A stretch of DNA of 64,000 nucleotides from Polaromonas sp. (GTDB lineage Bacteria > Pseudomonadota > Gammaproteobacteria > Burkholderiales > Burkholderiaceae_C): contig NZ_JAQSDA010000003.1 of the NCBI RefSeq assembly GCF_029945685.1, positions 62,001-126,000 of the forward strand. Reading direction: 5' to 3'. The position numbers were made by a program, and so were the translations under genes. Position 1 is the first letter of the stretch. Every line of letters begins with the position of its first letter. The notes beneath the pieces were generated by a model. It saw only the letters and a program-made list of their open reading frames with translations, did not search any database and had not been told where the DNA came from. Below, one piece after another: positions 5,380-64,000 of the stretch.

Positions 5380-5412
5380 GGTTTCTCCCGAAAAAGGATT
5401 TGGAATAAATTA

Positions 5413-6462: not shown

Positions 6463-6504
6463 GCCCTCATTGTCGTTGCAATCGGGATCTGCCCTGGAAG
6501 TTCA

Positions 6505-6564
6505 AGTAAAAAGTGGCTCCAGCCCTTGATGGTTAAGCGGGAGTAGCTATTAAAATAATAGCTA
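6505..6564 (+). repeat. Short dispersed repeat, copy 1 (hairpin-ended)
   Basis: An AT-richer element runs GTAAAAAGTGGCTCCAGCCC, then TTGATGG, and ends in a perfect inverted repeat TAGCTATTA-AAA-TAATAGCTA at 6544-6564. Related sequences lie at about 19473-19540, 39731-39790 (opposite strand), 42062-42113 and 49479-49532. They share the order (G)AAAAA-GGC-CCCTT-GCG-AGCTATNA. It sits between the 5' end of the kinase gene and the 3' end of the DUF2855 gene. Confidence 0.75.
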
Positions 6565-6586
6565 TCCATCGTCGCCACCAACCGCG

Positions 6587-7672
6587 TCAGAGCGTCAGGA
6601 TATGCCCGATGCGAGGATTGCCCTGGCCGGCCAGCACCTGCTGGTAGGCCGTGGCGACGGCGTCGGCACCCTGGTGGTGCTGCGTGACCAGCCAGGGTGA
6701 GGGCGCTTGTGTCACGCGCTGGCTGAACGTCTGCCACGCCTGCACCAGGCGCTGGCCCAAACCCTCCGCGCTCCAGTCGGCGCTGCGCTTCTTGATCTGC
6801 GCCGGCGCAAAAAACAGCGTGGCGCGCGGACCTGGCAGATCCCGGGCTCCGCCGAGCTCGGCCACATGGGTGCCGCCTATGGAGCAGCTGTACTTGAGGT
6901 TTACAAAGCGGCTGTGGATGGCAAGGCGCAGCCCGGCGTTGCCGGCAAAGTCCACATAAATGCACGCCGCATCGGCAGAAATCTGGTCGAGCTGCTCATA
7001 CGTCAGCACCCGGCTGTAGCAACCCAGGCTTTCGCAAAAGGCGACATTGCCCGGCGAGGTCAGGCCGATCACCTCGATGCCCGGGCGCCGCGCCAGCTGG
7101 AAGGCTGTGCCGTAAGCGGTCTTGCTCGAGGCGCTGGACAGCAGCATCACCCGGGCGCCGAAGAAATCGTTGTCGGCCAGGAAGTCGTCGATCAGGAAGG
7201 AAGTGACAAACAGCGGCCGAAGCAAGGCCTGGATGTCTTCGGTGGCGGGTGTGTAAAACGGGTCGGCACTGCAGCGCAGGTACTGGTTGTAGACAGGGTG
7301 CAGTTCGCGCCGGCGCGCTGCGCCGTCGGAAAACCCCGAGGTGTTCAGGCGTGCAGGCGTGAGCACGGTGGCCGACGCCATGGGGTAATAGCCGTATAGC
7401 CGCTCGCCCGCCGCCACACCCGGATGCAGCGACTGCACCACACTGCCAAAGCCCCACACCGGTATGGTGCCCCAGCCCTCCTCGACCGTGGGGAAGAACT
7501 GCCAGTAGTTCATCGCATCGCCAAAGGCGGCATAGGTGATGTTGTTGGAGGTCAGTGCAAAGGATTCGACCCGCACACGCACCTGGCCATCGGCCAGTGG
7601 CGTGTCCTGTGCCGTTGCCAGCCGCGTGTCGGCCAGATCGTTTTTGCGAACAAGAAAGGTGGTGGTGCTCAT
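6587..7672 (-). CDS. DUF2855 family protein (MDR-like)
   Basis: This 361-residue DUF2855 protein resembles medium-chain reductases in layout: the N-terminal GroES-like part carries VRVRVESFALTSNNITYAAFGDAMNYWQFFP and WGTIPVWGFG, and a Rossmann-type region follows (MLLSSASSKTAYGTAFQLA, then IEVIGLTSPGNVAFCESLG). No zinc-ligand set of classical alcohol dehydrogenases is evident. Substrate and activity are unknown. Immediately upstream, only 22 nt from the ATG, lies a strong hairpin followed by a T run on this strand, which is unusual for a leader. Confidence 0.82.
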   Translation of the reverse strand: MSTTTFLVRKNDLADTRLATAQDTPLADGQVRVRVESFALTSNNITYAAFGDAMNYWQFFPTVEEGWGTIPVWGFGSVVQSLHPGVAAGERLYGYYPMASATVLTPARLNTSGFSDGAARRRELHPVYNQYLRCSADPFYTPATEDIQALLRPLFVTSFLIDDFLADNDFFGARVMLLSSASSKTAYGTAFQLARRPGIEVIGLTSPGNVAFCESLGCYSRVLTYEQLDQISADAACIYVDFAGNAGLRLAIHSRFVNLKYSCSIGGTHVAELGGARDLPGPRATLFFAPAQIKKRSADWSAEGLGQRLVQAWQTFSQRVTQAPSPWLVTQHHQGADAVATAYQQVLAGQGNPRIGHILTL

Positions 7673-46855: not shown

Positions 46856-47560
46856 TCAGACGCCGAGATATTCCTGCAGCATGCCCATGTTCTGGGTCAG
46901 CTCGTTCTGCGCAAACTGTTTCACGATGGTGCCGTGCTCCATCACGTAAAAGCGGTCGGCCAGCGGCGCGGCGAAGCGGAAGTTCTGCTCGACCAGCACG
47001 ATGGTGTAACCCTTGGCCTTGAGCGTGAGAATCATCTCGGCGAGCTTTTGCACGATGACGGGCGCCAGGCCTTCGGAGATTTCATCGAGCAGCAGCAGGC
47101 GCGCGCCGGTGCGCAGGATGCGTGCCACGGCCAGCATCTGCTGCTCGCCGCCCGACAGGCGCGTGCCGGGGCTGGACGCGCGCTCTTTCAGGTTGGGGAA
47201 CATGGCGTAGATTTCCTCGATGCTCATGCCGCCCGGTGCCAGTGTGGGCGGCAGCATCAGGTTTTCCTCGGCCGTCAGGCTGGCGAAGATGCCGCGTTCT
47301 TCAGGGCAGTAACCCACGCCCATGTGCGCCACCTTGTGCGGCGCCAGTTTGATGGTTTCTTCACCATTGATGCGGATCGAGCCCTTGCGCGAACCGGTCA
47401 GGCCGACAATGGCGCGCATCGTCGTGGTGCGACCGGCGCCGTTGCGGCCCAGCAGCGTCACCACCTCGCCCTCGTGCACGGTCAGGTTCACGCCATGCAG
47501 AATGTGCGACTCGCCATACCAGGCGTGCAGGTTCTCGATTTTCAGGAGTTCCTTGGACAT
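46856..47560 (-). CDS. livF: ABC transporter ATPase LivF
   Basis: This 234-residue ATPase has Walker A GRNGAGRTT, in which the usual lysine before the threonine is replaced by arginine, then VGYCPEERGIFASLTAEENL, signature LSGGEQQMLAVARIL, Walker B LLLLDEISEGLAP and VLVEQNFRFA. The Lys-to-Arg change in Walker A is worth noting because the lysine contacts the ATP phosphates; sequence was read as CGCCGTTGCGGCC... on the opposite strand, so a base error is possible. It follows livG with a TGATG overlap. Confidence 0.92.
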   Translation of the reverse strand: MSKELLKIENLHAWYGESHILHGVNLTVHEGEVVTLLGRNGAGRTTTMRAIVGLTGSRKGSIRINGEETIKLAPHKVAHMGVGYCPEERGIFASLTAEENLMLPPTLAPGGMSIEEIYAMFPNLKERASSPGTRLSGGEQQMLAVARILRTGARLLLLDEISEGLAPVIVQKLAEMILTLKAKGYTIVLVEQNFRFAAPLADRFYVMEHGTIVKQFAQNELTQNMGMLQEYLGV

Positions 47561-48333
47561 CAGTGGGCTCCCTGCAGTTCGGTATTGGCGGTGCCCATGT
47601 AGGCCTCGATCACCAGCGGGTTTTTCGACACTTCGTCGTACGGGCCGTCGGCAATGATGGCGCCGCGCTGCAGCACCGTGATGCGGTCGGCAATCGAAGA
47701 CACCACGTTCATGTTGTGCTCCACCATCAGGATGGTGCGGCCGGCGGAGACCTTCTTGATCAGCTGGGTCACGCGGTCCACGTCTTCGTGGCCCATGCCC
47801 TGTGTCGGTTCGTCCAGCAGCATCAGCTCGGGCTCGAGCGCCAGCGTGGTGGCCAGTTCCAGCGCGCGTTTGCGGCCGTAAGGCAGGTTGACGGTCAGCT
47901 CGTCGGCGAAATCCTGCAGGTCCACCTCGGCCAGCAACTGGCGGGCGCGTTCATGCAGGGGAAACAGCGTGCTCTCGGCTTTCCAGAAATGAAACGAGGT
48001 GCCAAGATTGCGCTGCAGCGCCGCGCGCACGTTTTCCAGCACGGTCATGTGCGGAAACACCGCCGAGATCTGGAAGGAACGGACAATGCCGCGCCTTGCC
48101 GTCTGTGCCGGCTTTTCGGTCGTGATGTCCTTGCCGTTGAACAGGATGGTGCCGGTGGTCGGGTGCAGGAATTTGGTCAGCAGGTTGAAGAAAGTGGTTT
48201 TGCCCGCGCCATTGGGGCCGATCAGCGCGTGGATATGGCCGCGCTGGACTTTCAGGTCCACCTGGTTGACGGCCACGAATCCCTTGAATTCCTTGGTCAA
48301 CCCACGCGTTTCAAGAATGAACTCCGCTGACAA
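47560..48333 (-). CDS. livG: ABC transporter ATPase LivG
   Basis: This 257-residue ATPase has Walker A GPNGAGKTT, FNLLTKFLHPTTG, IVRSFQISAVFPHMTVLENV, LPYGRKRALELATTLALEPELMLLDEPTQGMGHED (the LivG-type signature lacks the usual LSGGQ and here reads NLPYGRKRALE) and MVEHNMNVV. It is the first gene of the livGFKHM operon. A long leader of about 250 nt ahead of it contains a motif resembling a LuxR/NarL-type response-regulator site. Confidence 0.93.
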   Translation of the reverse strand: MSAEFILETRGLTKEFKGFVAVNQVDLKVQRGHIHALIGPNGAGKTTFFNLLTKFLHPTTGTILFNGKDITTEKPAQTARRGIVRSFQISAVFPHMTVLENVRAALQRNLGTSFHFWKAESTLFPLHERARQLLAEVDLQDFADELTVNLPYGRKRALELATTLALEPELMLLDEPTQGMGHEDVDRVTQLIKKVSAGRTILMVEHNMNVVSSIADRITVLQRGAIIADGPYDEVSKNPLVIEAYMGTANTELQGAH

Positions 48334-48432
48334 ATTGCTCTCCGGCTACAGACATTGAAATGGCGGGCGCACGGGCCCGTCACAGAGAACTGCATGCTAA
48401 CGAGTCGCGTTGTGGCGCGTGAGCGGGTTAGG

Positions 48433-48450
48433 ACTTAGGTAGTTTTACGT
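48433..48450 (-). promoter_or_regulatory. Possible LuxR/NarL-type regulator site upstream of livG
   Basis: On the minus strand ACGTAAAACTACCTAAGT contains two TACNTAA-like direct half-sites spaced like heptamers of NarL/FixJ-family regulators. It lies about 100 nt before the livG start. I recall similar sequences ahead of transporter genes in related bacteria but cannot verify this here. Confidence 0.3.
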
Positions 48451-48585
48451 GCCGGCCTGCCGGAGGAAAAACACCCAGGGCAAGCCGCCTCGGGCCTGGG
48501 GCGAGCCCGCAGCTGTGTCAGGGTTTTGTCAGAAAAAGAGAACGCGGCGCGCCAACCGGTTTTCTGCAGAACGGGTGTCGGTTTT

Positions 48586-49350
48586 TCAGCGTGCGTGGGT
48601 CACGCCGCCGTCAACCACCAGTGTGGAGCCGACCACGTAGTCGCCGGCGCGCGAGGCCAGGTAGATGGCGGCGCCGGCCATGTCGGCGTCCTGCCCGACA
48701 CGCCCGGCCGGGATTCGCGCGGCGACCGCTTCGCCATGGTCACGGGCGTCCTTGTTCATGTCCGAGGCGAAGGCGCCGGGGGCGATCGCGCTGACCACGA
48801 TGTTGTCCTGGATCAGGCGCAAGGCCATGCGCCGGGTCAGCTGGATCAGGCCGGCCTTGCTCGCCGCATAGGAATAGGTTTCCATGGGGTTGACGGAAAT
48901 GCCGTCGATGGAGGCAATGTTGATCACCTTGGCGGGACGCCGCTCGCCGGACTTGCGCAAGGCGCTGATCAGTGCCTGCGTCAGGAAAAAGGGCGTCTTG
49001 AGGTTCAGGTCCATCACCTTGTCCCAGCCGCTTTCCGGAAACTCGTCAAACGGGGCACCCCAGGCAGCGCCGGCGTTGTTGACCAGGATGTCGAGCTGCG
49101 GCTCGAGCGCACCGTACGCCGCGGCCAGGCCCCTGGCCCCTTCGAGTGTCGAGACATCGGCAGGCAGCGACACGCAGTGCCCCAGGCTGGCCAGTTCTTT
49201 GGCGGTCTGGTCGCAGGCCGCGGCCTTGCGAGCCGAGATGTAGACCCGCGCACCCTGGGCCAGGAAGCCGGCGGCAATCATGCGGCCGATGCCGCGTGAA
49301 CCGCCGGTGATCAGCGCCGTGCGGCCCTGCAGGGAAAAAAGATCGTTCAT
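48586..49350 (-). CDS. SDR family oxidoreductase, RhlG/FabG-like
   Basis: This 254-residue SDR has the NADP motif TGGSRGIGRMIAAGF with an arginine cluster (SARKAAACDQT) that favours NADPH, LVNNAGAAWGAPF, INIASIDGIS and the catalytic YSYAASKAGL. The RhlG-like wording (VYISARKA, SLPADVST) is seen in 3-oxoacyl reductases. It is 250 nt upstream of livG on the same strand, so it may be a separate unit. Substrate is unknown. Confidence 0.87.
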   Translation of the reverse strand: MNDLFSLQGRTALITGGSRGIGRMIAAGFLAQGARVYISARKAAACDQTAKELASLGHCVSLPADVSTLEGARGLAAAYGALEPQLDILVNNAGAAWGAPFDEFPESGWDKVMDLNLKTPFFLTQALISALRKSGERRPAKVINIASIDGISVNPMETYSYAASKAGLIQLTRRMALRLIQDNIVVSAIAPGAFASDMNKDARDHGEAVAARIPAGRVGQDADMAGAAIYLASRAGDYVVGSTLVVDGGVTHAR

Positions 49351-53389: not shown

Positions 53390-54586
53390 TCAGCCCGGCA
53401 CCACCATGCTGGGAATGGTGGTGGCCGGCGGCGTGTTGCGGCTGCGGCCGCTGCGTACAATGCCGTCGATCATCACCATGCCCACACCGGGGATGTCGCC
53501 GCGCTGGACGCTGTCGAGCAGGTTCAGCCCGGATGAATGCTGGGCCTTGTCCATGAACACGAAGTCGGCATCGCGGCCGACCTCGATCAGGCCGCAGTTG
53601 AGCTGGCGGATACGCGCGGTGTTGCCGGTGGCAAAACAGAAGGCCAGTTCGGCCGGAATGTTGCCCAGGCTGGACAGCAGGGCGATGAGCCGCAACATGC
53701 CCAGCGGCTGCACGCCGGAGCCGGCGGGCCCGTCGGTGCCGAGAATCACCCGGTGCGGGCATTTGAGCTGCAGCGCGGCCTGCGCTGCGGCAATCGCGAC
53801 CTTCTCGTTGCCGTTGTGCACGATCTCGATGGCGCGCGAGGACTTCTCACAGAGCTCGCAGACATGCTGCTCGGACAGGGCGGTGTGGCCGCCGTTGATG
53901 TGGCCGATCACGTCGGCGTCGGCTTCCAGCACCACGTCCTTGTCGATCAGGCCGGAGCCGGGAATCGACGGGCCACCGGTGTGGATGGTGCTCTGGATGC
54001 CGTACTTGCGGGCCCAGGCCACCATCTCCCTGGCCTCGTAGCCGGCCTTGACCGAACCCAGGCCGACCTCACCGAGCAGCGTGACGCCGGCCTCGGCCAG
54101 CTGTTTGAAATCGTCCTCGACCATGCCTTTTTCGATGATCGGGGCGCCAGCCAGCACCTTGACGCCGCCGGGACGGAAGTTGTCGAAAGCGCGCTGCGCG
54201 GTGATGGCCAGGGCCTTGAGCCCGACGATGTCCTTGGGGCGGCCGGGCAGGTGCACCTCACCGGCCGAAATCATGGTGGTGACGCCGCCGTGCATGGTCG
54301 AATCAATCCAGCCGATCTGGTTTTGCCGCGGCGTCCAGTCGCCGAACACGGGATGGACATGGCTGTCGATCAGGCCCGGGCAAACGCAGGTCTGGTGCGC
54401 ATCGATGATGGTCTGTGCGCCCTCGGTGTCGCAGTCTTTGGCCTTGCCGACGGCGACGATCAGCCCGTCGTTCACGACAATCGTGTCCGCGTCCAGAATC
54501 GGCTGGTCGATGTCACCGGACAGCAGCAGTCCGATGTTTCTGATCACCACTTTTCCGGATTTTCCGGTCGATACAGCTTCTGCCAT
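53390..54586 (-). CDS. Enamidase-like amidohydrolase
   Basis: This 398-residue amidohydrolase has metal motif GLIDSHVHPVFGDWTP (H76, H78), STMHGGVTTMISAGEVHLPGRP, TIHTGGPSIPGSG, ADVIGHINGGHTAL and the late ILGTDGPAGSGVQ aspartate. The wording matches enamidase of nicotinate fermentation, which hydrolyses 1,4,5,6-tetrahydro-6-oxonicotinate to ammonia and 2-formylglutarate using Fe and Zn. It lies downstream of fdxA, fpr and tetR on one strand and opposite a 6-hydroxynicotinate-reductase-like gene, exactly the pairing expected. The substrate in this organism is inferred only. Confidence 0.85.
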   Translation of the reverse strand: MAEAVSTGKSGKVVIRNIGLLLSGDIDQPILDADTIVVNDGLIVAVGKAKDCDTEGAQTIIDAHQTCVCPGLIDSHVHPVFGDWTPRQNQIGWIDSTMHGGVTTMISAGEVHLPGRPKDIVGLKALAITAQRAFDNFRPGGVKVLAGAPIIEKGMVEDDFKQLAEAGVTLLGEVGLGSVKAGYEAREMVAWARKYGIQSTIHTGGPSIPGSGLIDKDVVLEADADVIGHINGGHTALSEQHVCELCEKSSRAIEIVHNGNEKVAIAAAQAALQLKCPHRVILGTDGPAGSGVQPLGMLRLIALLSSLGNIPAELAFCFATGNTARIRQLNCGLIEVGRDADFVFMDKAQHSSGLNLLDSVQRGDIPGVGMVMIDGIVRSGRSRNTPPATTIPSMVVPG

Positions 54587-54642
54587 GTTGTTTGCCCTCT
54601 CAAAGGTCGTGTGTGGGAATGTCCGCCGGCGGCGCGCAGATG

Positions 54643-55332
54643 TCAGGGGTTGAGCATCACCGTGCGCAGCACGGTGCTGGTGATGAAAGCCTGCCAGTCG
54701 GCCAGGGCCTCGGGTGTCTGCAGGTCTTCCCCGAGAAAGGCAGACAGCGTGTGGCGGTTGGAGATGTAGAAGTAGCCGGTCGCCGCGATCAGCAGGTACA
54801 CATTTCGTGCGGAGATGTCAGCGCGAAACACCTTCTTTTTCACCCCGCTTTCCAGCAGCTTCTGGATGATCGCGATGGCGGGCGACGAGTATTCCCGGGC
54901 ACGCATGGACTTGGAGATGTGTTTGCCGCGGTGCAGGTTTTCGGTGTTGAGCAGCGTGATGAACTCGGGGTTCTTGCTGTAATAAGTCACGACAAAACGG
55001 ATGACTTCCTTGAGCGACTCCACCGGCTGCTCCAGGTCGAGGTCGAGCTCCAGCTCGGCATCGTTCATCCGGCGGTACATGTCTTCCAGCACTTCGATGA
55101 ACAGGCCTTCCTTGCTCCCGAAGTAGTAGTAAATCATCCGGTCGAAGGACTTGGCCGACAGCGAGATTTTTTCCACGCTGCCGCCCTCGTAGCCGTACCG
55201 CGCAAAGACCTTGGTGGCGGCACGCAGGATATTGTCGCGCGTGGTTTGCGCAGCCTGCTCCCGCACGCCCGGCCGCTTTGCTGAGGCGAGCCGGGCAGTC
55301 GCCGAGCGTGGGGATGTGGGTTTGGTGGCCAT
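54643..55332 (-). CDS. TetR-family regulator
   Basis: This 229-residue TetR regulator has a basic tail (MATKPTSPRSATARLASAKRP) followed by the HTH region TRDNILRAATKVFARYGYEGGSVEKISLSAKSFDRMIYYYFGSKEGLF in outline, then a C-terminal ligand domain of about 130 residues. It is encoded between fpr and the enamidase-like gene, so it probably controls this pathway and its own operon through the palindromes between fdxA and the reductase gene. A full 87-bp repeat lies between it and fpr. Confidence 0.9.
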   Translation of the reverse strand: MATKPTSPRSATARLASAKRPGVREQAAQTTRDNILRAATKVFARYGYEGGSVEKISLSAKSFDRMIYYYFGSKEGLFIEVLEDMYRRMNDAELELDLDLEQPVESLKEVIRFVVTYYSKNPEFITLLNTENLHRGKHISKSMRAREYSSPAIAIIQKLLESGVKKKVFRADISARNVYLLIAATGYFYISNRHTLSAFLGEDLQTPEALADWQAFITSTVLRTVMLNP

Positions 55333-55380
55333 GGCGTCAGCTAGCAGGCAATAAGCGTGGAGGTCTTCTCTTCACCAGCC

Positions 55381-55467
55381 GGGTCCGCGGAGCCGGCTTT
55401 GCCGGGCCGCAGGCGAAGCGCCCCCTCGGTGGGCAGCGTCGTAGGCGTAGCGACAAGCGTGGGGGCC
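55381..55467 (+). repeat. 87-bp GC-rich dispersed repeat, copy C
   Basis: GGGTCCGCGGAGCCGGCTTT at the start and AGCGTGGGGGCC at the end, again 87 nt. It begins 4 nt after the fpr stop in the direction of transcription and separates fpr from tetR in one operon. It differs from copy B at only a few positions in the first 58 nt. Confidence 0.93.
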
Positions 55468-55471
55468 ATAT

Positions 55472-56245
55472 TCACTGCTCGGCAAACGCGCGTTCGATCA
55501 CGAAGTCGCCGGGTCTGGAGGTGTTGCCTTCCACAAAGCCGCGTTTCTCAAGCATGTGTTTCAGGTCCTTGAGCATGCCCGGGCTGCCGCAGATCATGAC
55601 GCGGTCCTGCGCGGGGTCCAGCGCAGGCAGCTTCAGGTCTTCGAACATCTTGCCGGTTTCCATCAGGTCAGTGACGCGGCCCATGTTGCGGTAACTCTCG
55701 CGCGTCACGGTCGGGTAATACAGCAGCTGCCTGGACACCATGTCGCCGAGGAACTCGTGTTGGGGCAGATGGTCCACGACCAGGTCGTGGTAGGCCAGCT
55801 CGTCGGCCTGGCGCACGCCATGCACCAGAACGATCTGCTCGAACTGTTCGTAAGTTGCCGGGTCGCGGATGATGCTCATGAAGGGCGCCAAACCGGTTCC
55901 GGTGGACAGCAGGTACAGCCGCTTGCCGGGAAGCAGGTAGTCGATCACCAGGGTGCCGGTCGGCTTGCGCCCGACAATGATGGTGTCGCCCACCTTGATG
56001 TGCTGGAGACGCGACGTCAGGGGGCCGTCGGGCACCTTGATGCTCAGAAACTCCAGGTGTTCCTCATGGTTGGGGCTCACGATGCTGTAGGCCCGCAGCA
56101 GCGGCTTGTCGTTGACCCGCAGGCCTATCATCGTGAAATGGCCGTTGCTGAAGCGCAGCGAGGTGTCACGGGTGGTGGTGAAAGTAAACAGGCGATCCGT
56201 CCAGTGATGCACGGACAGGACACGTTCTTCGTTGAAGGCGCTCAT
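55472..56245 (-). CDS. fpr: Ferredoxin-NADP reductase
   Basis: This 257-residue flavoenzyme moves electrons between NADPH and ferredoxin. It has FAD motif LLRAYSIVSPNHEEHLEF, HIKVGDTIIVGRKPTGTLVID, the NADP-binding region LYLLSTGTGLAPFMSIIRDP and VLVHGVRQADEL, and the C-terminal MICGSPGMLKDLKHML with a final aromatic-poor VIERAFAEQ. It follows fdxA by 39 nt. In this operon it would charge the ferredoxin that feeds the 6-hydroxynicotinate-reductase-like enzyme. Confidence 0.94.
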   Translation of the reverse strand: MSAFNEERVLSVHHWTDRLFTFTTTRDTSLRFSNGHFTMIGLRVNDKPLLRAYSIVSPNHEEHLEFLSIKVPDGPLTSRLQHIKVGDTIIVGRKPTGTLVIDYLLPGKRLYLLSTGTGLAPFMSIIRDPATYEQFEQIVLVHGVRQADELAYHDLVVDHLPQHEFLGDMVSRQLLYYPTVTRESYRNMGRVTDLMETGKMFEDLKLPALDPAQDRVMICGSPGMLKDLKHMLEKRGFVEGNTSRPGDFVIERAFAEQ

Positions 56246-56284
56246 GGTGGTGAATGTAGGGGCTGAAGGTTCGGGTTGGATGAT

Positions 56285-56614
56285 TCAGCCGTCGAGATGA
56301 ATGCTCGCCAGCTTACCGGTTTTGTCTTTCCATTGCTCCGCCGTCGCCAGGGGCGCGATGCGCCTGGAAATGGTGGGCCATTGTCTGGCGAGGCGCTGGT
56401 TGAGCTCGAAAAAGGGTTCAAACTGCGCGGGCATGTCCGCGTCGGCGTAAATGGCGTTGACCGGACATTCGGGAATACACACGGCGCAGTCAATACACTC
56501 GTCCGGATCGATCACCAGAAAGTCCGGACCTTCCTTGAAGCAGTCCACCGGACAGACGTCCACACAATCCGTGTATTTGCATTTGATGCAGGCATCGGTG
56601 ACGACGTGGGTCAT
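56285..56614 (-). CDS. fdxA: 7Fe-type ferredoxin FdxA
   Basis: This 109-residue ferredoxin has two clusters: [25 protein letters not shown] and [17 protein letters not shown], the 3Fe-4S/4Fe-4S pattern of FdxA. The start is the ATG of MTHVVTDA; upstream in-frame codons cross the operator region and lack similarity. It is the first gene of fdxA-fpr-tetR-enamidase. Being placed opposite the reductase gene and next to fpr, it is the likely electron donor of that reductase. Confidence 0.95.
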
Positions 56615-56678
56615 GGGATCCTTGGGGAGGGGGCTGCAGGTCAGGCCGCTGGCGCTCGATGGCGTCAATGTGCCATAC

Positions 56679-56722
56679 AAATGTAGTGAATGCAACATTT
56701 AAATGTAGTGCCCATAACATTT
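56679..56722. promoter_or_regulatory. Tandem palindromic operators O1 and O2
   Basis: Two adjacent 22-bp blocks of the form AAATGT-N10-ACATTT lie end to end: 56679-56700 (inner AGTGAATGCA) and 56701-56722 (inner AGTGCCCATA). They sit about 65-108 nt before the fdxA start. Their symmetric form fits a TetR-family dimer, and the tetR gene is in the same operon. Confidence 0.78.
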
Positions 56723-56756
56723 TTTGAGTGTTGCCGGACCTGACGCGTAAACACTA

Positions 56757-56785
56757 TTGCACAGACCCGATGTATGCGCTACATT
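56757..56785 (+). promoter_or_regulatory. Promoter for the reductase operon
   Basis: TTGCAC (56757-56762) and TACATT (56780-56785) are separated by 17 nt. The -10 lies within a CGCTACATT arm that pairs with AATGTAGCG 7 nt on, so regulator binding should block it. The predicted start is about 6-8 nt further, just before operator O3. Confidence 0.6.
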
Positions 56786-56791
56786 GATTTC

Positions 56792-56813
56792 AAATGTAGC
56801 GAGCGCAACATTC
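56792..56813. promoter_or_regulatory. Palindromic operator O3
   Basis: AAATGT-AGCGAGCGCA-ACATTC has the same layout as O1 and O2 and lies 65 nt before the reductase start, mirroring the O1 distance to fdxA. A half-site CGCTACAT recurs at about 56826-56833. Confidence 0.75.
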
Positions 56814-56877
56814 CAGTTAAGCAAGCGCTACATCCGGAATGACGTACAGGATGACCGGCGGTACGAAGGCAAACACG

Positions 56878-58512
56878 ATGACCGAGCATACAAAAACGGA
56901 CGGCTTACCAGGCATGGATTCCCCCGGGCTTCCCCAGGTCCTGGAAAAGGCCCGGCCGCGCAGCGAGCGAATGAACAGCGAGAAGATTGAATGCAATGCC
57001 TGTCCTGTGTTGTGTCAGATCTCCGACGGCCGCAGCGGCGCCTGCGACCGGTATGCCAACCAGGGCGGCACGCTGGTGCGGGTCGATCCGGTGCTCTTGC
57101 TGCGGCGCACCCTGGACGGCGGCGAGCCTGTGCTCGTGCCGTTCACGGCCCGACCTGTTGCTGCGGATGCGCCCGATGCTGCCGCATTGCCCGATGCCGC
57201 GCCGGAAGAAACCTCCTGGCGTGGTGATCTGCTGCTGGCCGACGAGGTGTTCGTCACCGGCGTGGGCTCCTCGACGACCTACCCCGACTACAAGCCGGCG
57301 CCTTTCATTGTGTCCTCCCGGGTAGCGGGGGTGGACCTGGTCACGGTGGTCACCGAGGGCATCTTCAGCTATTGCAGCCTCAAGGTGAAGATAGACACCG
57401 ACCGCTTCCTCGGCGCCGAGCAGGCCAACGTGCGCTTCAAGGGCGAGGTCGTCGGCCATGTGACCACGGCGGAATACGGCTCCCAGATGCTGTCGCTGGG
57501 CGGAGTGCACCACCTGACCGGGGGCAGCAAGAAAGAGGGCCGGGTGACGGTCGAGATGATGATGGCGCTTGGCAACAAGCAGCCGGCTGAACTCACGATT
57601 GACGGCGGCTCCCAGATCCTGATCCAGGCCGGCCGGGCACCCGTCGTCAACGGGGTGGAGGAAAAGCGCATGCGTGTGGGTTGTGGCTCGGCCACCATCG
57701 GCATTTTCGCGAAACAGTTCTACGGCAAGCTTGACGAGGTGGTGGTGGTCGATGATCACATCACTGGCGTGCTGACCGAGCACCAGGCCGGCCGCTGCCT
57801 GGACATGCGTCCCTCGGGGATCAGGATGCAGGGCCGCAAGTCGACGCCCGGACGATATTTCCAGGTGGCCAACCCCGGGACGGGGTGGGGTGGCACGGAC
57901 ATCGCCGATCCACTGGCCATCATTGAAGGGTGGGACGCCGAGGCGGCCTGGCCGGGCCTGCGGCTGCTCATGACGTCGACCACCGGCGAGCACGCCGGCT
58001 GGTATGTCCTGGACGACCAACTCCAGCCGGTGGAACAGGACATGCCTGAAGAGGTGCGCCGCATCGTCGAGCGTATCGGCGAAAACTGCGAGCCTTCGCT
58101 GACCACCGTGCTTTTTCTGGGCGGCGCCGGCGGCAGCCTGCGCGCGGGGGTCACGGAAAACCCGGTTTTGCTGACGCGCGCCATCAAGAACGCGCTGGTC
58201 AATGTCACCTGCGGCGGGGCGCCCGCCTATATCTGGCCCGGTGGCGGAATCACCGTGATGGTGGACGTCATGCGCATGCCGGACAACAGCTTCGGCACCG
58301 TACCGACACCGGCCATCGTCGCCCCGATTGAATTCAGCATGAAGCTCGATGACTACCGTGCATTGGGCGGCCACATGGATCATGTGCGCACGCTGGACGA
58401 TGCACTGCGGCGGGGAGCCTGGCACAACGAAGGTGCGCCCACGGCCCGTCAGTGGGTGCAGATGCCCGCAGCCAATCCGTGGCCGCTCGCGCGGCCGCCA
58501 CTGCTGGGCTGA
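56878..58512 (+). CDS. 6-hydroxynicotinate reductase-like iron-sulfur protein
   Basis: This 544-residue protein resembles the ferredoxin-dependent reductase that turns 6-hydroxynicotinate into 1,4,5,6-tetrahydro-6-oxonicotinate. It starts with a cysteine motif C39-x2-C42-x3-C46-x9-C56 (ECNACPVLCQISDGRSGAC), a likely Fe-S site. Later blocks are VFVTGVGSSTTYPDYKPAPF, GVDLVTVVTEGIFSYCSLKVKIDTDRFLGAE, GGVHHLTGGSKKEGRVTVEMM, and GGSLRAGVTENPVLLTRAIKN. The bacterial fermentation enzyme has covalent flavin and Fe-S clusters. The ATG with GAAGG at 8 nt is preferred; an inner ATG at codon 32 would still keep the cluster. Substrate here is inferred. Confidence 0.85.
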   Translation: MTEHTKTDGLPGMDSPGLPQVLEKARPRSERMNSEKIECNACPVLCQISDGRSGACDRYANQGGTLVRVDPVLLLRRTLDGGEPVLVPFTARPVAADAPDAAALPDAAPEETSWRGDLLLADEVFVTGVGSSTTYPDYKPAPFIVSSRVAGVDLVTVVTEGIFSYCSLKVKIDTDRFLGAEQANVRFKGEVVGHVTTAEYGSQMLSLGGVHHLTGGSKKEGRVTVEMMMALGNKQPAELTIDGGSQILIQAGRAPVVNGVEEKRMRVGCGSATIGIFAKQFYGKLDEVVVVDDHITGVLTEHQAGRCLDMRPSGIRMQGRKSTPGRYFQVANPGTGWGGTDIADPLAIIEGWDAEAAWPGLRLLMTSTTGEHAGWYVLDDQLQPVEQDMPEEVRRIVERIGENCEPSLTTVLFLGGAGGSLRAGVTENPVLLTRAIKNALVNVTCGGAPAYIWPGGGITVMVDVMRMPDNSFGTVPTPAIVAPIEFSMKLDDYRALGGHMDHVRTLDDALRRGAWHNEGAPTARQWVQMPAANPWPLARPPLLG

Positions 58513-58524
58513 GCCAGGCGACCC

Positions 58525-59442
58525 ATGGATGCCCAACGCACGCTTCTGCCCGACGGCCGCTGGCACTTCCAGCATGGTCCGATGGACATCGTCATTGGGG
58601 CCAGCGGCCGTCCGGCCTGTGTCGAGGCTGCCCATGCGGCGGCGTGGGAGCGCTTCACCGGCATGCTGGACGAACTGGTGCAGGAGCTCGCTGCCATGCG
58701 ACAACCGGTGAGCGGCGACTGTCCCTTGCGGGGCCCCATCGCCCGGCGCATGTGGCACGCCTGCCAGCCTTATCAAAGCAGTTTCATCACCCCGATGGCC
58801 GCAGTGGCCGGCGCCGTGGCGCAGGAACTGGTGGCCTGTTACGCCGTTGATGGCGTGACGCGTGCATGGGTCAACAATGGTGGTGACATCGCCTTGCATC
58901 TCACCCCCTCGCAGTCGGTGCGCATCGGGCTCTATGCTGATCTTTCGCGCCTGAGCATCGGTGAAATTCTCGACGGGGTGCAGACCGATGGTCAGTTCGA
59001 GGTGGCCAGTGTGCTGCCCGTGCGCGGTGTGGCCACCAGCGGCTGGCGCGGCCGCAGCTTTTCGCTTGGAATTGCAGACAGCGTCACGGTTCTCGCACGC
59101 ACCGCGTCCGAGGCCGACGCCGCGGCCACCGTCATTGCCAATGCGGTCAATCTGCAGGATGCCCGCATCCGCCGCCGGCCGGCCTGCGAATTGAAGGATG
59201 ATTGCGACCTCGGCGCGATTCCCGTCACGGTGGATGTCCCGCCACTGGAGCCGGCGCTGGTGCAGCAGGCCTTGCGGGCCGGCCTGAAGCGCGCGCAGGC
59301 TTTGCGCGCCGCAGGCCTGATCTGGTCGGCCGCGCTGGTTTGCCAGAATCAGGTGATGACCACCGATGCGGCGGAACGGGTGACCCTGAAAAACCGGGTC
59401 GCCGACGGTCGCAGAATGCAACTTGGTTCAGTATTTGCTTAA
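58525..59442 (+). CDS. UPF0280 family protein, ApbE-like fold
   Basis: This 305-residue UPF0280 protein has the flavin-transferase-like segments of the ApbE superfamily: WVNNGGDIALHL, GVATSGW, SVTVLARTASEADAAATVIANAV. It starts 12 nt after the reductase gene and is followed by two PF06684 genes. ApbE attaches FMN to target proteins; the relative of the neighbouring reductase contains covalent flavin. A role in flavinylation is an attractive inference, though UPF0280 itself has no proven activity. No clear flavinylation target motif of the DGATS type was found in the reductase. Confidence 0.8.
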   Translation: MDAQRTLLPDGRWHFQHGPMDIVIGASGRPACVEAAHAAAWERFTGMLDELVQELAAMRQPVSGDCPLRGPIARRMWHACQPYQSSFITPMAAVAGAVAQELVACYAVDGVTRAWVNNGGDIALHLTPSQSVRIGLYADLSRLSIGEILDGVQTDGQFEVASVLPVRGVATSGWRGRSFSLGIADSVTVLARTASEADAAATVIANAVNLQDARIRRRPACELKDDCDLGAIPVTVDVPPLEPALVQQALRAGLKRAQALRAAGLIWSAALVCQNQVMTTDAAERVTLKNRVADGRRMQLGSVFA

Positions 59443-59464
59443 TGAAATGGATGGACGCCAACCG

Positions 59465-60106
59465 ATGATTGAAATACGACGTATCTTCACGCATGTGGAG
59501 CAGATCTGGCACGAGTTCGGCCCGGTCGCCCCGGTGCCGCTGATGCGCGGCGCCATAGCAGCCGTGCTGACCAATCCGTTTGCCGGTCGTTACGAGGCCG
59601 ACATCCTGCCCATGATGGACGGGCTCCAGCCGGTCGGCATCGACATGGCCGAACGGTTGCGCGCGGCGATGGGCGTGCCGGCGGAGCGCATCGAGGGTTA
59701 CGGCAAGGGCGCCATCGTCGGCGCGGCGGGTGAGCTCGAACACGGTGCACTGTGGCACGTTCCCGGCGGCTACGCGATGCGGGAACTGCTGGGCTGGAAG
59801 GGTGATGCCGCGGCTTATGCCAAGGGGCAAGGCGAGGAAAAATCCGGGCGCCCCGGCAATGCCCTGTCCATCGTGCCTTCCACCAAAAAGGTGGGCGCGC
59901 CGGGCACTGCGCTGGATGTGCCGATGACGCACATCAATGCTGCCTATGTGCGCAGTCATTTTGACGCGATCGAAGTTCGCGTTCCCGGCGCCCCCCTGCC
60001 GGATGAAATTGTCTTTATTCTTGCCATGAGCACCGGTCCCCGTGTCCACGCCCGTGTGGGCGGGCTGGCAGCCCACGCCATCAGCAAGTGGGACGGTCTG
60101 CGCTAA
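59465..60106 (+). CDS. Amino acid synthesis family protein (PF06684), paralog 1
   Basis: This 213-residue protein is of PF06684 (formerly DUF1185), whose structures show a chorismate-mutase-like fold; function is unproven. Segments are IRRIFTHVEQIWHEFG, AAVLTNPFAGRYEADI, YGKGAIVGAAGELEHGALWH, GNALSIVPSTKKVGAPGTALDVPM and the conserved AAYVRSHFDAIEVRVPGAPLPDEIV. A later paralog shares these. A second group of about 15 residues (GWKGDAAAYAKGQGEEKSGR) is extra compared with paralog 2. The start is the ATG of MIEIRRIF. Confidence 0.8.
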   Translation: MIEIRRIFTHVEQIWHEFGPVAPVPLMRGAIAAVLTNPFAGRYEADILPMMDGLQPVGIDMAERLRAAMGVPAERIEGYGKGAIVGAAGELEHGALWHVPGGYAMRELLGWKGDAAAYAKGQGEEKSGRPGNALSIVPSTKKVGAPGTALDVPMTHINAAYVRSHFDAIEVRVPGAPLPDEIVFILAMSTGPRVHARVGGLAAHAISKWDGLR

Positions 60107-60147
60107 AGCGCCATCTACACAACGACAATACGCAAGGAAGAAGCAGC

Positions 60148-60732
60148 ATGACAGCCATGATCAGAAAAATCATCGTCCAGGTCGACGAGACCCGGATGGA
60201 AATGGGGCAAGCGGTCCATCCACCGACGCGGCGGGCGCTGGCCATGGCGGTGATCGCCAATCCGTTTGCCGGCAAGTACGTCGAGAACCTTGACGAGCTG
60301 ATCGCCATCGGGGAAGAGCTCGGCGGACTGCTGGGTGAAAAATGCGTGCAGGCGCTGGGCATCTCGTCCGACCAGGCACAAAGTTACGGCAAGGCGGCGA
60401 TTGTCGGCGAGGCTGGAGAACTGGAACACGCCGCAGCCATCCTGCACCCCAAGCTGGGTGCGCCCCTGCGCCTGGCGGTCCAGAAAGGCGCGGCGCTTGT
60501 GCCCTCCAGCAAGAAGCGGGGCGGCCTCGGGACCGCCATTGACGTTCCGCTCGGGCACAAGGACGCGGCTTTTGTGCGCAGCCATTTTGACGCCATGGAG
60601 GCGCGGGTCGCCGATGCACCGCGTGCCAATGAAATTGTGGTTGCTGTCGTCGTCACAGACAGCGGCCGGCCACTACCGCGCGTGGGCGGCTTGCAAGTCC
60701 ACGACATCAAGGGCGAGGATGGGCTCCGCTAG
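60148..60732 (+). CDS. Amino acid synthesis family protein (PF06684), paralog 2
   Basis: This 194-residue second PF06684 protein begins MIRKIIVQVDETRMEMGQAV and carries AVIANPFAGKYVENLDEL, YGKAAIVGEAGELEHAAAI, VPSSKKRGGLGTAIDVPLGHKDAAFVRSHFDAMEARVADAP in outline, and a C-terminal VVVTDSGRPLPRVGGLQVHDIKGEDGLR. AAGGAAG precedes the ATG. Two paralogs side by side suggest a heteromeric complex in which one handles a ring-opened intermediate, but no function is established. Confidence 0.8.
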   Translation: MTAMIRKIIVQVDETRMEMGQAVHPPTRRALAMAVIANPFAGKYVENLDELIAIGEELGGLLGEKCVQALGISSDQAQSYGKAAIVGEAGELEHAAAILHPKLGAPLRLAVQKGAALVPSSKKRGGLGTAIDVPLGHKDAAFVRSHFDAMEARVADAPRANEIVVAVVVTDSGRPLPRVGGLQVHDIKGEDGLR

Positions 60733-60781
60733 GCGGCGCTCCTCACCATCCATTCCGATCCACGACAAGCAGGAGTTTTTT

Positions 60782-61987
60782 ATGAAGATGCAATACAGGA
60801 TGCTGGGCACCGTGACTTTTCTGGGTCTGATGGCCTCGCTGGGGGCCGCCCACGCGCAGGGGGTCATCAAGATTGGCGAGATCAACAGCTACAAGGCCCA
60901 GCCCGCCTTTCTCGAGCCCTACAAGAAGGGGATGGAGCTGGCTGTCGAGGAAATCAATGCCGCCGGCGGCGTCAACGGCAAAAAGGTCGAACTGATTGTC
61001 CGCGACGACAACGCCAACCCCGGTGATGCGGTTCGTGCTGCCGAGGAGCTGGTGTCGCGCGAAAAAGTGGACGTGCTCACCGGCTCCTTTCTCTCGCACA
61101 TCGGCCTGGCACTGACGGACTTCGCGAAGCAGAAGAAATTTTTCTTTCTGGCTGCTGAGCCGCTGACCGACAAGATCGTCTGGCAAAACGGCAATCGCTA
61201 CACCTACCGCCTGCGTGCATCCACCTACATGCAGGTGGCCATGCTGGTGCCCGATGCGGCCGCGATGAAGAAAAAACGTTGGGCCGTCGTGTACCCCAAC
61301 TACGAATACGGCCAGTCCGCGGCCGCCAGCTTCAAGAAGCTGCTCAAGGAGGCGCAGCCCGATGTGGAGTTCGTTGCCGAACAGGCGCCGCCTCTGGGCA
61401 AGGTGGACTCGGGCAGCGTGGTGCAGGCCCTGGCCGATGCCAAGCCGGACGCCATCTTCAATGTGCTTTTTGGTGCCGACCTCTCCAAGTTCGTGCGTGA
61501 GGGCAACACCCGCGGCCTGTTCCAGGGTCGCGAAGTGGTCAGCCTGCTGACGGGAGAACCCGAGTACCTCGATCCTTTGAAAGACGAAACGCCCAATGGC
61601 TGGCTGGTCACCGGTTACCCGTGGTACGGCATCCAGACGCCCGAGCACAAGGCCTTTTTCCTGGCTTACCACGGCAAGTACAAGGACTATCCGCGCCTGG
61701 GTTCCGTGGTGGGCTACAGCGCCATCAAGTCGCTGGCAGAAGGCATGAAAAAAGCCAAGTCGACCGACACCGAGAAGATGATTGCAGCCTTCAGCGGCCT
61801 GAAAGTCAGCACGCCTTTTGGTCCGGTGGTCTACCGTCCTGAAGATCACCAGTCCACCATGGGAGCCTACGTCGGGCGCACCAAAAACGAGGGTGGCAAG
61901 GGTGTGATGGTGGACTACCGCTACATGGACGGTGCGAAGTTCCAGCCGTCAGCCGCAGAAGTCAAGAAGCTGCGTCCGGCCGACTGA
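60782..61987 (+). CDS. ABC transporter substrate-binding protein, LivK-type
   Basis: This 401-residue periplasmic binding protein has a signal peptide (MLGTVTFLGLMASLGAAHA) and the amide-urea type family wording: VIKIGEINSYKAQPAFLEPYKKGMELAVEEINAAGGVNG in outline, VDVLTGSFLSHIGLALTDFAKQKKFFFLAAEPLTDK, YGQSAAASFKKLLKEAQPD, and VDYRYMDGAKFQPSAAEVKKLRPAD. It sits between the PF06684 pair and a LivH-LivM fusion, so it probably captures the substrate of this pathway. CAGGAG precedes the ATG. Confidence 0.9.
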   Translation: MKMQYRMLGTVTFLGLMASLGAAHAQGVIKIGEINSYKAQPAFLEPYKKGMELAVEEINAAGGVNGKKVELIVRDDNANPGDAVRAAEELVSREKVDVLTGSFLSHIGLALTDFAKQKKFFFLAAEPLTDKIVWQNGNRYTYRLRASTYMQVAMLVPDAAAMKKKRWAVVYPNYEYGQSAAASFKKLLKEAQPDVEFVAEQAPPLGKVDSGSVVQALADAKPDAIFNVLFGADLSKFVREGNTRGLFQGREVVSLLTGEPEYLDPLKDETPNGWLVTGYPWYGIQTPEHKAFFLAYHGKYKDYPRLGSVVGYSAIKSLAEGMKKAKSTDTEKMIAAFSGLKVSTPFGPVVYRPEDHQSTMGAYVGRTKNEGGKGVMVDYRYMDGAKFQPSAAEVKKLRPAD

Positions 61988-62139
61988 GCGGGCTCAAACG
62001 CTGCGAAGCCCAGTCCGGTCCCGCGCCGTCCGCGCGGGCGCCGGCTGCGGGGTTCGCCGCCAATGGACTCCTGCCCGGCGGCCCATGCCTGTCACGGCGC
62101 CTGCAAGGGGCTGCCTCCTCCCGTATAAAAAGGTAATTC

Positions 62140-64000
62140 ATGAGCTTTTCAGGCTTTGTCGTCCAGTTGCTCAACGGGCTGGCCGGTGCTTCGTCGCTGT
62201 TTCTGGTGGCGGCCGGCTTGTCGCTGATCTTTGGCGTGACACGCATCGTCAACTTCGCACACGGCTCATTTTTCATGGTCGGCATTTACGTCGCCTATTC
62301 CCTGGTGGCCAACTTGGGCGGCACGATAGGCTTCTGGCCGGCCTTGCTGCTGGCCGCGCTCGCCGTCGGTGTGCTTGGTGCGCTGGTCGAGGTACTGCTG
62401 CTGCGCCGCATTTACCGTGCACCCGAACTGTTCCAGCTGCTGGCCACCTTTGCGCTGGGCCTGGTGATCAAGGACGGGGTGTTGTGGTTCTGGGGGCCTG
62501 AGGAATTGCTCGGCCCGCGGGCGCCCGGCCTGACCGGTTCCGTGTCCATTCTTGGCCGGCAATTTCCTTCCTACGATCTGTTCCTGATTGTTGCCGGTCC
62601 GGTGGTTCTCGGCCTGCTCTGGCTGCTGCTGACCAAAACCCGGTGGGGGACGCTGGTGCGTGCCGCCACGCAGGACCGGGAGATGGTCAGCGCGTTGGGT
62701 GTCAACCAGGCCTGGCTGTTCACCGCGGTGTTTGCACTCGGTGCGCTGCTGGCGGGACTGGGCGGTGCGCTGCAGCTGCCGCGCGAACCCGCCAACCTCG
62801 AGATGGACCTCAACATCATCGGCGCCGCCTTTGTGGTGGTGGTGGTCGGCGGCATGGGCTCCATTCCCGGCGCCTATGTGGCGGCGCTGCTGATTGCGGA
62901 GTTGAAGGCCATCTGCATCTGGCTGGGCCTGGTGGAAATCTGGGGCGTCAGCATTTCGTTCTCCAAACTCACCCTGGTGGTGGAGTTTCTGGTGATGGCC
63001 GTCGTGCTGGTGGCCCGTCCCTGGGGTCTGTTCGGTCGGCCTCAGGCGACCAGCCGCCACGCCGGCACCGCCGAGGAACCCCTGCGGCCGCCTGATCGCC
63101 TCTACAAGTTCGGCGGCGCCGCCTTGCTGGCCCTGCTGGTCCTGATGCCTGCGCTGACCGCACAGTCGCCCTACGTGACGGTCCTGCTGATCGACCTGCT
63201 GGTGGCTGTGCTGTTTGCGGCCAGCCTGCACTTCATCATGGGCCCGGCCGGCATGCATTCCTTTGGCCATGCGGCTTACTTCGGCTTGGGTGCCTACGGC
63301 GCGGCCCTGGTGGTGCGCAGCCTGAACCTGCCGATGGAGGTGGCACTGGTCGTCGCGCCGGCACTCGCGGCGCTGGGGGCCTTCATCTACGGCTGGTTTT
63401 GTGTCCGCCTGTCAGGGGTGTACCTCGCCATGCTGACGCTGGCGTTTGCCCAGATCACCTGGGCGATCTGTTACCAGTGGGATGCCTTCACCGGCGGCAG
63501 CAATGGCCTGACCGGCGTCTGGCCGTCCGAATGGCTGGCCGACAAGAAGATGTACTACTACCTGACGCTGGCATTGGTGGCCGGGGCCGTGCTGATGATG
63601 CACCGTATGTTGTATTCCCCCTTTGGTTACGCCATGCGTGCTGCACGCGATTCAGTGCTTCGCTCAGATGCAATAGGCATCGACGTCAAACGCATGCAAT
63701 GGGTGGCGTTTGTCATCGCCGGCACCTTCGCTGGCCTGGCCGGTGCGCTGTATGCCTTCTCCAAAGGCAGCATTTCCCCGGAAAGCCTGCATGTGAGCAA
63801 ATCCATCGACGGTCTGGTCATGGTGCTGCTGGGCGGTGTGCAGACACTGGTGGGCCCCATTGTCGGCGCCGTCACCTTCACCTGGCTGCACGACACGGTG
63901 GCGCGCAACACCGACTACTGGCGCGCCATGCTGGGCGCCATCATCCTGATTCTGGTGCTGCTGTTTCCGCAAGGAATTGCCGGCTTTGTCCAGCAACTGC
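62140..64000 (+). CDS. Fused LivH-LivM permease (3' end outside window)
   Basis: At least 620 residues read without interruption. The first half is LivH-like (MSFSGFVVQLLNGLAGASSL, TRIVNFAHGSFFMVG, GGMGSIPGAYVAALL); after a linker near residue 310 (GLFGRPQATSRHAGTAEEP) a LivM-like half follows (SFGHAAYFGLGAYGAALVV, SGVYLAMLTLAFAQITWA, FTGGSNGLTGVW, SPFGYAMRAARDSVLRSDAIG). It ends beyond the window. LivG and LivF ATPases for this transporter should lie to the right. AAAAAGG precedes the ATG by 6 nt. Confidence 0.9.
   Translation, partial: MSFSGFVVQLLNGLAGASSLFLVAAGLSLIFGVTRIVNFAHGSFFMVGIYVAYSLVANLGGTIGFWPALLLAALAVGVLGALVEVLLLRRIYRAPELFQLLATFALGLVIKDGVLWFWGPEELLGPRAPGLTGSVSILGRQFPSYDLFLIVAGPVVLGLLWLLLTKTRWGTLVRAATQDREMVSALGVNQAWLFTAVFALGALLAGLGGALQLPREPANLEMDLNIIGAAFVVVVVGGMGSIPGAYVAALLIAELKAICIWLGLVEIWGVSISFSKLTLVVEFLVMAVVLVARPWGLFGRPQATSRHAGTAEEPLRPPDRLYKFGGAALLALLVLMPALTAQSPYVTVLLIDLLVAVLFAASLHFIMGPAGMHSFGHAAYFGLGAYGAALVVRSLNLPMEVALVVAPALAALGAFIYGWFCVRLSGVYLAMLTLAFAQITWAICYQWDAFTGGSNGLTGVWPSEWLADKKMYYYLTLALVAGAVLMMHRMLYSPFGYAMRAARDSVLRSDAIGIDVKRMQWVAFVIAGTFAGLAGALYAFSKGSISPESLHVSKSIDGLVMVLLGGVQTLVGPIVGAVTFTWLHDTVARNTDYWRAMLGAIILILVLLFPQGIAGFVQQL

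Follow-up and report, generated by a model that had tools for sequence, protein, structure and literature searches.

The 64,000-nucleotide (nt) stretch analysed here (the window; positions 62001-126000 of contig 3 of a 4.74 Mb Polaromonas genome) ends in two divergent operons built around a 6-hydroxynicotinate-reductase-like gene (hnr) and an enamidase-like gene (ena). Together with the genes that follow past the window edge, they very likely form a self-contained nicotinate/nicotinamide catabolic cluster of the Azorhizobium type, working as proposed below, and we are highly confident of the reductive nicotinate pathway on its own. The route itself is a known one for vitamin B3, if little studied, and the cluster represents it in a fuller form and in a betaproteobacterium. 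An earlier interpretation made from the letters of the window (the sequence-only reading) had listed ten genes for a ferredoxin-powered reductive ring opening, implied that such a route was new in an aerobe, and kept open a substrate other than nicotinate. All ten open frames were confirmed at their place and strand, and the outline of the chemistry stands; the caution over the substrate and the novelty of the route do not. Comparison of related loci further suggests three new points: a link of the UPF0280 protein to Hnr, a link of the PF06684 family to ring opening, and exchangeable ring openers.

The probable nicotinate cluster and its extension past the window

The ena gene (53390-54586, minus strand) encodes an amidohydrolase that matches the enamidase of Eubacterium barkeri (2vun_A) with 371.9 bits (E 3.8e-110), the second-best PDB sequence reaching 28.7 bits. 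The homology is full-length, with residues 11-390 aligned to residues 2-381 of 2vun_A. The alignment conserves HVH, the E in GEVGLG, the H in HTGG, the H in HINGG and the D in GxDxPxG, residues that we take to serve as metal ligands. Ena is a true relative of the E. barkeri enamidase and is predicted to hydrolyse 1,4,5,6-tetrahydro-6-oxonicotinate (THON).

The hnr gene (56839-58512, plus strand) probably starts at 56878 and not at 56839 of the longest frame, as its relatives begin with MTEHT. No match to Hnr was obtained in Pfam, NCBIfam or PDB sequences. Homologues 57-77% identical were identified on 26 plasmids; 17 are annotated as “6-hydroxynicotinate reductase”, and the remaining nine have no annotation, no feature or “hypothetical”. 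All of 120 homologues keep cysteines 59, 69, 179, 282 and 417, and 118 of them keep Cys52 and Cys55, a pattern that fits the needs of an Fe-S enzyme. A passage of PMC3511419 describes a Bradyrhizobiaceae homologue that is 42% identical to the E. barkeri enzyme and lies in a conserved cluster. In one relative with a one-contig genome (G315, contig 1, 2969820-2971261, in locus L155), the Hnr match is split into two that overlap and lie in different frames, which may reflect a frameshift, a sequencing error or a true two-part form.

Upstream of hnr and divergent from it lie genes for a putative electron supply. The fdxA gene (56285-56614, minus strand) encodes an FdxA-type ferredoxin scoring 156.7 bits against the equivalog FdxA_Protbact (NF045490; cut-off 135). 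Its longest frame has a first ATG at 56698, and the FdxA model begins at residue 29 (M29), placing the likely start at 56614. The fpr product (55472-56245, minus strand) belongs to the ferredoxin/flavodoxin-NADP reductase family, with NF008178 as its best NCBIfam model (150.9 bits, under the cut-off of 390). FdxA would be the electron donor to Hnr. On a Sagittula stellata plasmid, a gene annotated “ferredoxin--NADP reductase” stands directly upstream of hnr. The arm also includes a TetR-family gene (54643-55332, minus strand; TetR_N, and TetR_C_29 with E 4.2e-42), whose product probably regulates the divergent operons.

On the plus strand, the importer is represented by a substrate-binding protein (60782-61987; Peripla_BP_6, E 1e-71) and a LivHM-type fused permease (62140-64000; BPD_transp_2 in two stretches, E 4.1e-71), which is open at the window end. 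Past the edge (locus L002), livG, livF, a nicotinamidase gene and NicA-like and NicB-like genes follow in this order. The nicotinamidase scores 181.1 bits against NF008623 (cut-off 174) and matches 2wt9 with E 1.5e-84; a Tat-like leader was seen by eye at its N-terminus. The NicA-like protein carries two [2Fe-2S] domains (Fer2/Fer2_2), while the NicB-like protein, of 1254 residues, combines Mo-cofactor (MoCoBD) and cytochrome c domains. On the opposite strand after NicB, genes for a CoA-transferase and a glutaryl-CoA dehydrogenase (3gnc match, E 1.3e-226) were identified, and a LysR gene is also present beyond the edge. The best NCBIfam model for the CoA-transferase is NF052585, “succinate--glutarate CoA-transferase” (569.9 bits, the next model reaching 282.7), although the score misses the equivalog cut-off of 750 bits. 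Elsewhere in the genome, a member of the succinate-semialdehyde-dehydrogenase family was detected (TIGR01780, 697.1 bits; cut-off 646.35).

These results bear on several statements of the sequence-only reading. Its route, built on an Hnr-like reductase and an enamidase relative with FdxA, an Fpr-family reductase, an importer and TetR, finds support in the sequence. The outcome that it had named as refuting, a phylogeny that sets the enzymes apart from the characterised ones, does not arise for the enamidase, given 371.9 against 28.7 bits. Its remark that the window holds no nicotinate hydroxylase is literally correct but reflects an edge effect, since the NicA/NicB-like genes span 2.3-6.6 kb past the edge. 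The doubt over the substrate finds no support, given the nicotinamidase, the NicAB-type hydroxylase and the glutarate genes adjoining just past the window.

Among 300 genomes from the order, 24 carry Hnr, as do 32 of 398 from the phylum, which makes 53 different genomes. Hnr was also detected on 26 of 72,556 plasmids, and the genome_contigs collection gave at least 591 matching stretches, the best 80 of which were kept. Among the matches listed, the four closest relatives are 84-94% identical and carry Polaromonas titles; Variovorax and Acidovorax strains and Paraburkholderia xenovorans LB400 are listed too. Synteny was counted by tblastn with window-genome queries in the 50 of the 80 kept loci that are longer than 21 kb, and the gene order of the cluster proved conserved. 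The genes hnr, UPF0280, PF06684-B and livHM are each present in 50 of 50 loci, livG in 49, tetR, nicA, livF and ena in 48 each, and PF06684-A in 47. Lower counts were obtained for the substrate-binding protein (40), fpr (36), nicB (32), nicotinamidase (25) and fdxA (11), those of nicB and nicotinamidase being lowered by the 10 kb flank limit.

The gene order from livG to the glutaryl-CoA dehydrogenase points to a route from nicotinamide through nicotinate, 6-hydroxynicotinate, THON, 2-formylglutarate and glutarate to glutaryl-CoA. We infer the catalytic steps, electron path, inducer and transported compound as follows. The Liv-type importer would bring in the vitamin, the nicotinamidase would convert nicotinamide to nicotinate, and NicAB would hydroxylate nicotinate to 6-hydroxynicotinate, passing the electrons to its own cytochrome c domains. 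Electrons would flow from NADPH through Fpr and FdxA to Hnr, which would reduce 6-hydroxynicotinate to THON, and Ena would convert THON to 2-formylglutarate and ammonia. Decarboxylation would then yield glutarate semialdehyde, with the PF06684 pair as the best candidates for this step, and a semialdehyde dehydrogenase encoded elsewhere would oxidise it; the CoA-transferase would activate the resulting glutarate for the glutaryl-CoA dehydrogenase. UPF0280 would mature Hnr by attaching a covalent flavin, and TetR, acting at operator repeats, would keep both operons repressed as long as neither the substrate nor 6-hydroxynicotinate is present.

Several points weigh against this interpretation. 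The naming of Hnr follows homologue annotation and PMC3511419 rather than a direct comparison with the E. barkeri protein, and the presence of fdxA in just 11 of the 50 long loci indicates that a different donor can take its place. Within the clusters, neither a semialdehyde dehydrogenase nor a known decarboxylase was recognised; 120 loci yielded one aldehyde dehydrogenase. In the same 120 loci of relatives, a match to the CoA-transferase gene (caiB) occurs in three (one at 60%) and to the glutaryl-CoA dehydrogenase gene in none, most of these flanks stopping before the position that the two genes take in the window genome; the two may belong to a locus that serves glutarate or lysine use in general and adjoins the cluster by chance. 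The genomes are also related by kinship, and the co-occurrence counts are not independent trials. The same enzymes could have been adapted to another pyridine or lactam, such as a different pyridone or a chlorinated nicotinate, and in strain SG-6C, according to a passage of PMC3511419, 6-chloronicotinate enters the same route via 6-hydroxynicotinate; a nicotinamidase above its curated cut-off and a NicAB-like hydroxylase following in the same direction, and nicA in 48 of the 50 long loci, make this improbable.

Details of the Azorhizobium nicotinate route were reportedly given by Kitts in 1992. Of the features that mark this type, an Hnr-type reductase, a cytochrome c nicotinate hydroxylase and genes for glutarate activation with glutaryl-CoA dehydrogenase were recognised here by sequence. 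The reductive route in Azorhizobium is touched on in passages of PMC3511419 and PMC9304392, and the former already reports it for Azorhizobium and Bradyrhizobiaceae, so that the novelty implied by the sequence-only reading finds no support. The cluster of Azorhizobium caulinodans and Bradyrhizobiaceae, as far as the passage in PMC3511419 describes it, runs to THON and then to a glutarate exit, as proposed here; the present one differs in its betaproteobacterial host, its divergent tetR-fpr-fdxA-ena arm, its nicotinamidase and its adjoining glutaryl-CoA genes. Two unknown proteins of the Bradyrhizobiaceae cluster in that report may, as a guess, be UPF0280 and PF06684. With the E. barkeri fermentation, the cluster shares an enamidase homologous over its full length and the Hnr family (the latter by a passage of PMC3511419), whereas NicAB with cytochrome c domains, separate FdxA and Fpr and the glutarate exit set it apart.

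Two apparent ring openers among the relatives

Enamidases at least 62% identical to Ena were identified in 24 of the 53 Hnr genomes, after matches at 38-43% identity (G052, G137 and G175) had been dropped as paralogues. The other 29 encode a HyuB protein (hydantoinase B/oxoprolinase, PF02538) whose identity is 65% or more to the one found near hnr on the Sagittula stellata plasmid, where HyuA/HyuB occupy positions 3642-7381 of locus L241. With a threshold of E 1e-150 that we chose, the HyuB subfamily is present in 31 of the 53 genomes; both openers occur in G418 and G487, and no genome has neither. The subfamily was found in none of 80 hand-picked Hnr-free genomes, 32 of which bear PF06684, with the scan of the Hnr genomes as positive control, and the window genome is likewise without a HyuB of this subfamily. 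In 12 of the 31 genomes, HyuB and hnr share a contig and are no more than 20 kb apart. Two of the 24 enamidases (G614 and G487) hold one stop inside the match, and in G614, which has no HyuB, the ring opener may be broken.

On the Hnr tree (52 genomes, the split Hnr of G315 being excluded), the enamidase/HyuB state changes at least three times, two of the changes being forced by well supported branches. A count at the locus level, made before the genome-wide searches, gave ena alone in 78 of 123 loci, hyuA/hyuB alone in 10, both in one (with a hyuA only 35% identical) and neither in view in 34, many of them short. The presence of HyuB in every enamidase-less Hnr genome and the state changes on the tree argue for a non-homologous exchange of the ring opener. 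Enamidase and HyuAB are, apparently, interchangeable ring openers in the relatives. Relatives of HyuAB in the PDB are 6yra and 7hk5; we take the hydantoinase/oxoprolinase relatives to use ATP, and the HyuAB type presumably does the same by analogy. The hydroxylase, too, seems to be exchanged between loci, with NicAB in some and a fused Mo/[2Fe-2S] protein with a FAD subunit in others.

UPF0280 and the PF06684 pair

The UPF0280 gene (58525-59442, plus strand) encodes a member of NF003322 (405.6 bits; cut-off 290) with a predicted ApbE-like fold. Among the 300 order genomes, UPF0280 scores above cut-off in 24, and 23 of these are among the 24 Hnr genomes (five further genomes with sub-cut-off matches were left uncounted). 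The fold of ApbE flavin transferases and the near one-to-one co-occurrence with the reductase suggest that UPF0280 attaches the Hnr flavin, and we lean towards a role as flavin transferase for Hnr. The ATSG and ADAxAT blocks are common to UPF0280 and an ApbE of the ApbE / Ftp / FmnB group, and an NGGD block is shared with the DUF375 structure 2o34.

Other observations speak against this assignment. UPF0280 reaches 18.9 bits against the Pfam ApbE model PF02424, under the cut-off of 25.6, which makes it a distant branch, and unlike ApbE, Ftp and FmnB it shows no visible His loop in its sequence. Profile comparison with the ApbE of the same genome was weak (probability 27, 48 columns) and left an 18-column gap at a His-containing stretch, which we take to be the site of the catalytic His of ApbE. 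In Hnr, the exact acceptor motif D-x-x-[S/T]-G-A-[S/T], given as canonical for flavinylation in a passage of PMC12052999, is absent. Two D-x-x-[S/T]-G stretches were found, DGRSGAC (63) and DHITGVL (306), neither of them exact, and the invariant DDHITG[VI][LVM][TS] (120 of 120 homologues) places its Ser/Thr one residue late. The low Pfam score, the lack of the His-containing stretch in this weak alignment, the absent motif and the below-cut-off UPF0280 matches in two methanogen controls (Methanocaldococcus jannaschii and Methanosarcina acetivorans) would equally suit a protein that is another factor needed by Hnr, such as a flavin-binding chaperone or an Fe-S helper, in which the ApbE fold is inherited. 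We regard this as a serious though somewhat less expected explanation than flavin transfer, which the fold and co-occurrence favour. In G084, a locus (L221, 3732-10955) carries UPF0280, PF06684-B and a LivHM-like gene and no hnr; it may be a decayed cluster or a misassembly.

The two genes that follow UPF0280 encode PF06684 (“amino acid synthesis” family) paralogues A (59468-60106, plus strand; E 2.6e-67, 226.1 bits) and B (60088-60732, plus strand; E 2.4e-72, 242.5 bits), both above the gathering cut-off of 27. PF06684 was found in 38 of 300 order and 59 of 398 phylum genomes. Of those with Hnr, 20 of 24 and 31 of 32, respectively, have the family, which amounts to 48 when each of the 53 genomes is counted once; of those without Hnr, 18 of 276 and 28 of 366 have it. 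In the family tree, clade B (support 96), clade A and a monooxygenase-associated type are separate, and an FAA-hydrolase type nests in clade A. Window paralogues A and B fall in clades A and B, respectively. Clade B stands at the locus in all 17 enamidase-only genomes whose locus is large, versus one of 24 HyuB-only genomes (G658), and also on the hyuAB-carrying Sagittula plasmid. Clade A occurs in 10 of the 17 and 21 of the 24, and the HyuB-only G103, G010 and G434 have neither clade. This count covers 43 of the 53 genomes. In G118, G157, G284, G029 and G418, the locus read is separate from hnr, and additional PF06684 copies that some genomes carry at other places were left unclassed.

The nearly exclusive tracking of the enamidase by PF06684-B suggests a step on 2-formylglutarate. 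The nicotinate and trigonelline routes both have a 2-formyl dicarboxylate as an intermediate, whose decarboxylation yields a semialdehyde. This shared chemistry and the lead from the trigonelline protein TgnF point to PF06684 acting at or just after ring opening, for which we see the chances as evenly balanced; decarboxylation is our first guess for that step, though it is doubtful that PF06684 is specifically the decarboxylase. As in the trigonelline (Tgn) pathway, PF06684 here adjoins a ring-catabolic gene set ending in a semialdehyde. The monooxygenase-type loci, which we take to be trigonelline-like, contain oxygenase genes instead of a reductase and an enamidase, and their PF06684 proteins form the separate clade. 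Across 202 PF06684 sequences, many of them close kin, N36, P37, K80, E89, E91, H92, H97, R105, R162, E180, R192 and R196 (window A numbering) show a conservation of 1.00 after rounding, compatible with a shared polar active site. In PMC2954203, His93, Arg176 and Glu90 of BB2672 are named at a cavity; the paper describing the solved structures 2qtp and 3byq shows no function for them.

Four Hnr genomes that are 97-100% complete (G010, G103, G271 and G434) lack PF06684, which counts against a strict requirement for it. A nearly balanced alternative is that 2-formylglutarate decarboxylates spontaneously or on Ena, and that PF06684 does something else, such as aldehyde tautomerisation or dehydration, aid to an aldehyde dehydrogenase, or help to Ena. 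These four genomes and the tracking of Ena by PF06684-B, rather than of the pathway as a whole, are consistent with it. In a passage of PMC7913881, TgnF stimulates the TgnE-dependent oxidation of succinic semialdehyde in trigonelline breakdown, whereas the same effect was not observable for the PF06684 protein HcdD. Nothing decisive stands against such a non-decarboxylase role. In G418 (contig 11, L240, 8456-10818), a module of ena with PF06684 A and B, hnr lying on another contig, is compatible with any step from ring opening onwards; it may represent a second enamide pathway. This module has a nucleoside-hydrolase gene and a different type of ABC transporter as neighbours. In G052 (contig 434, 1845-3616), a 43% identical enamidase-like paralogue adjoins a PF06684 gene away from hnr.

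The context of 15 fetched PF06684 loci away from hnr clusters was also read; ten selected neighbours were confirmed by Pfam, and the others were named by eye. Eight loci (L227-L229 and L232-L236) contain an aldehyde dehydrogenase with at least one of a luciferase-like monooxygenase, a flavin reductase and an alpha/beta hydrolase, and four (L230 and L237-L239) contain an FAA hydrolase. In some of these four, a gene for a Zn-alcohol dehydrogenase or TctC is also present, an assignment made partly by eye. L226 places BKACE, an aminotransferase and an aldehyde dehydrogenase beside PF06684, and L231 has none of these neighbour kinds. Amino-acid synthesis, proposed in a passage of PMC2954203 from a chorismate-mutase-like fold and nearby branched-chain amino-acid genes including transporters, is very improbable: such transporters stand in the nicotinate cluster too, the closest solved relative of PF06684-B (2qtp, SPO0826; E 8e-86) has such ABC genes as neighbours (SPO0822-0825), PF06684 sits within the nicotinate cluster in Hnr genomes, and elsewhere it often adjoins monooxygenase, flavin reductase, hydrolase or aldehyde dehydrogenase genes.

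Taken jointly, the proposals would make UPF0280 a cytosolic flavin transferase dedicated to Hnr with a non-canonical acceptor, e.g. Thr309 or Thr/Ser313, PF06684 a new cofactor-free decarboxylase of 2-formyl dicarboxylates in nicotinate and trigonelline breakdown, and enamidase and HyuAB two unrelated, nearly mutually exclusive ring openers. That all of this holds together is quite unlikely. If true, this would set right a misleading Pfam name and give functions to two unknown proteins in a gene set of at least 591 genome stretches. The cluster makes the role of UPF0280, the role of PF06684 and the replacement of enamidase by HyuAB testable with single genes in ordinary environmental bacteria.

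The divergent promoter and flanking genes

Between fdxA and hnr, the divergent promoter carries a palindrome, CTACATT-N6-AAATGTAG (56779-56799, no strand assigned; expected 0.00), which is a likely, putative TetR operator. Three operator-like pairs AATGTAG-N7-AACATT were identified in the same interval on the plus strand (56680-56699, 56702-56721 and 56793-56812, the last overlapping the palindrome), against 0.00 expected in the window. Within 300 bp upstream of hnr, ATGTAGC/GCTACAT occurs in 53 of 121 regions and in 0 of 121 stretches inside hnr, a control of coding DNA with another base make-up. TetR would bind these repeats.

About 4 kb before the cluster, the window also contains a LivG-like ATPase gene and an SDR dehydrogenase gene (47560-49350), both named by eye. 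Genes resembling livF/livG were likewise observed in the upstream flank of two related loci (L074 and L075).

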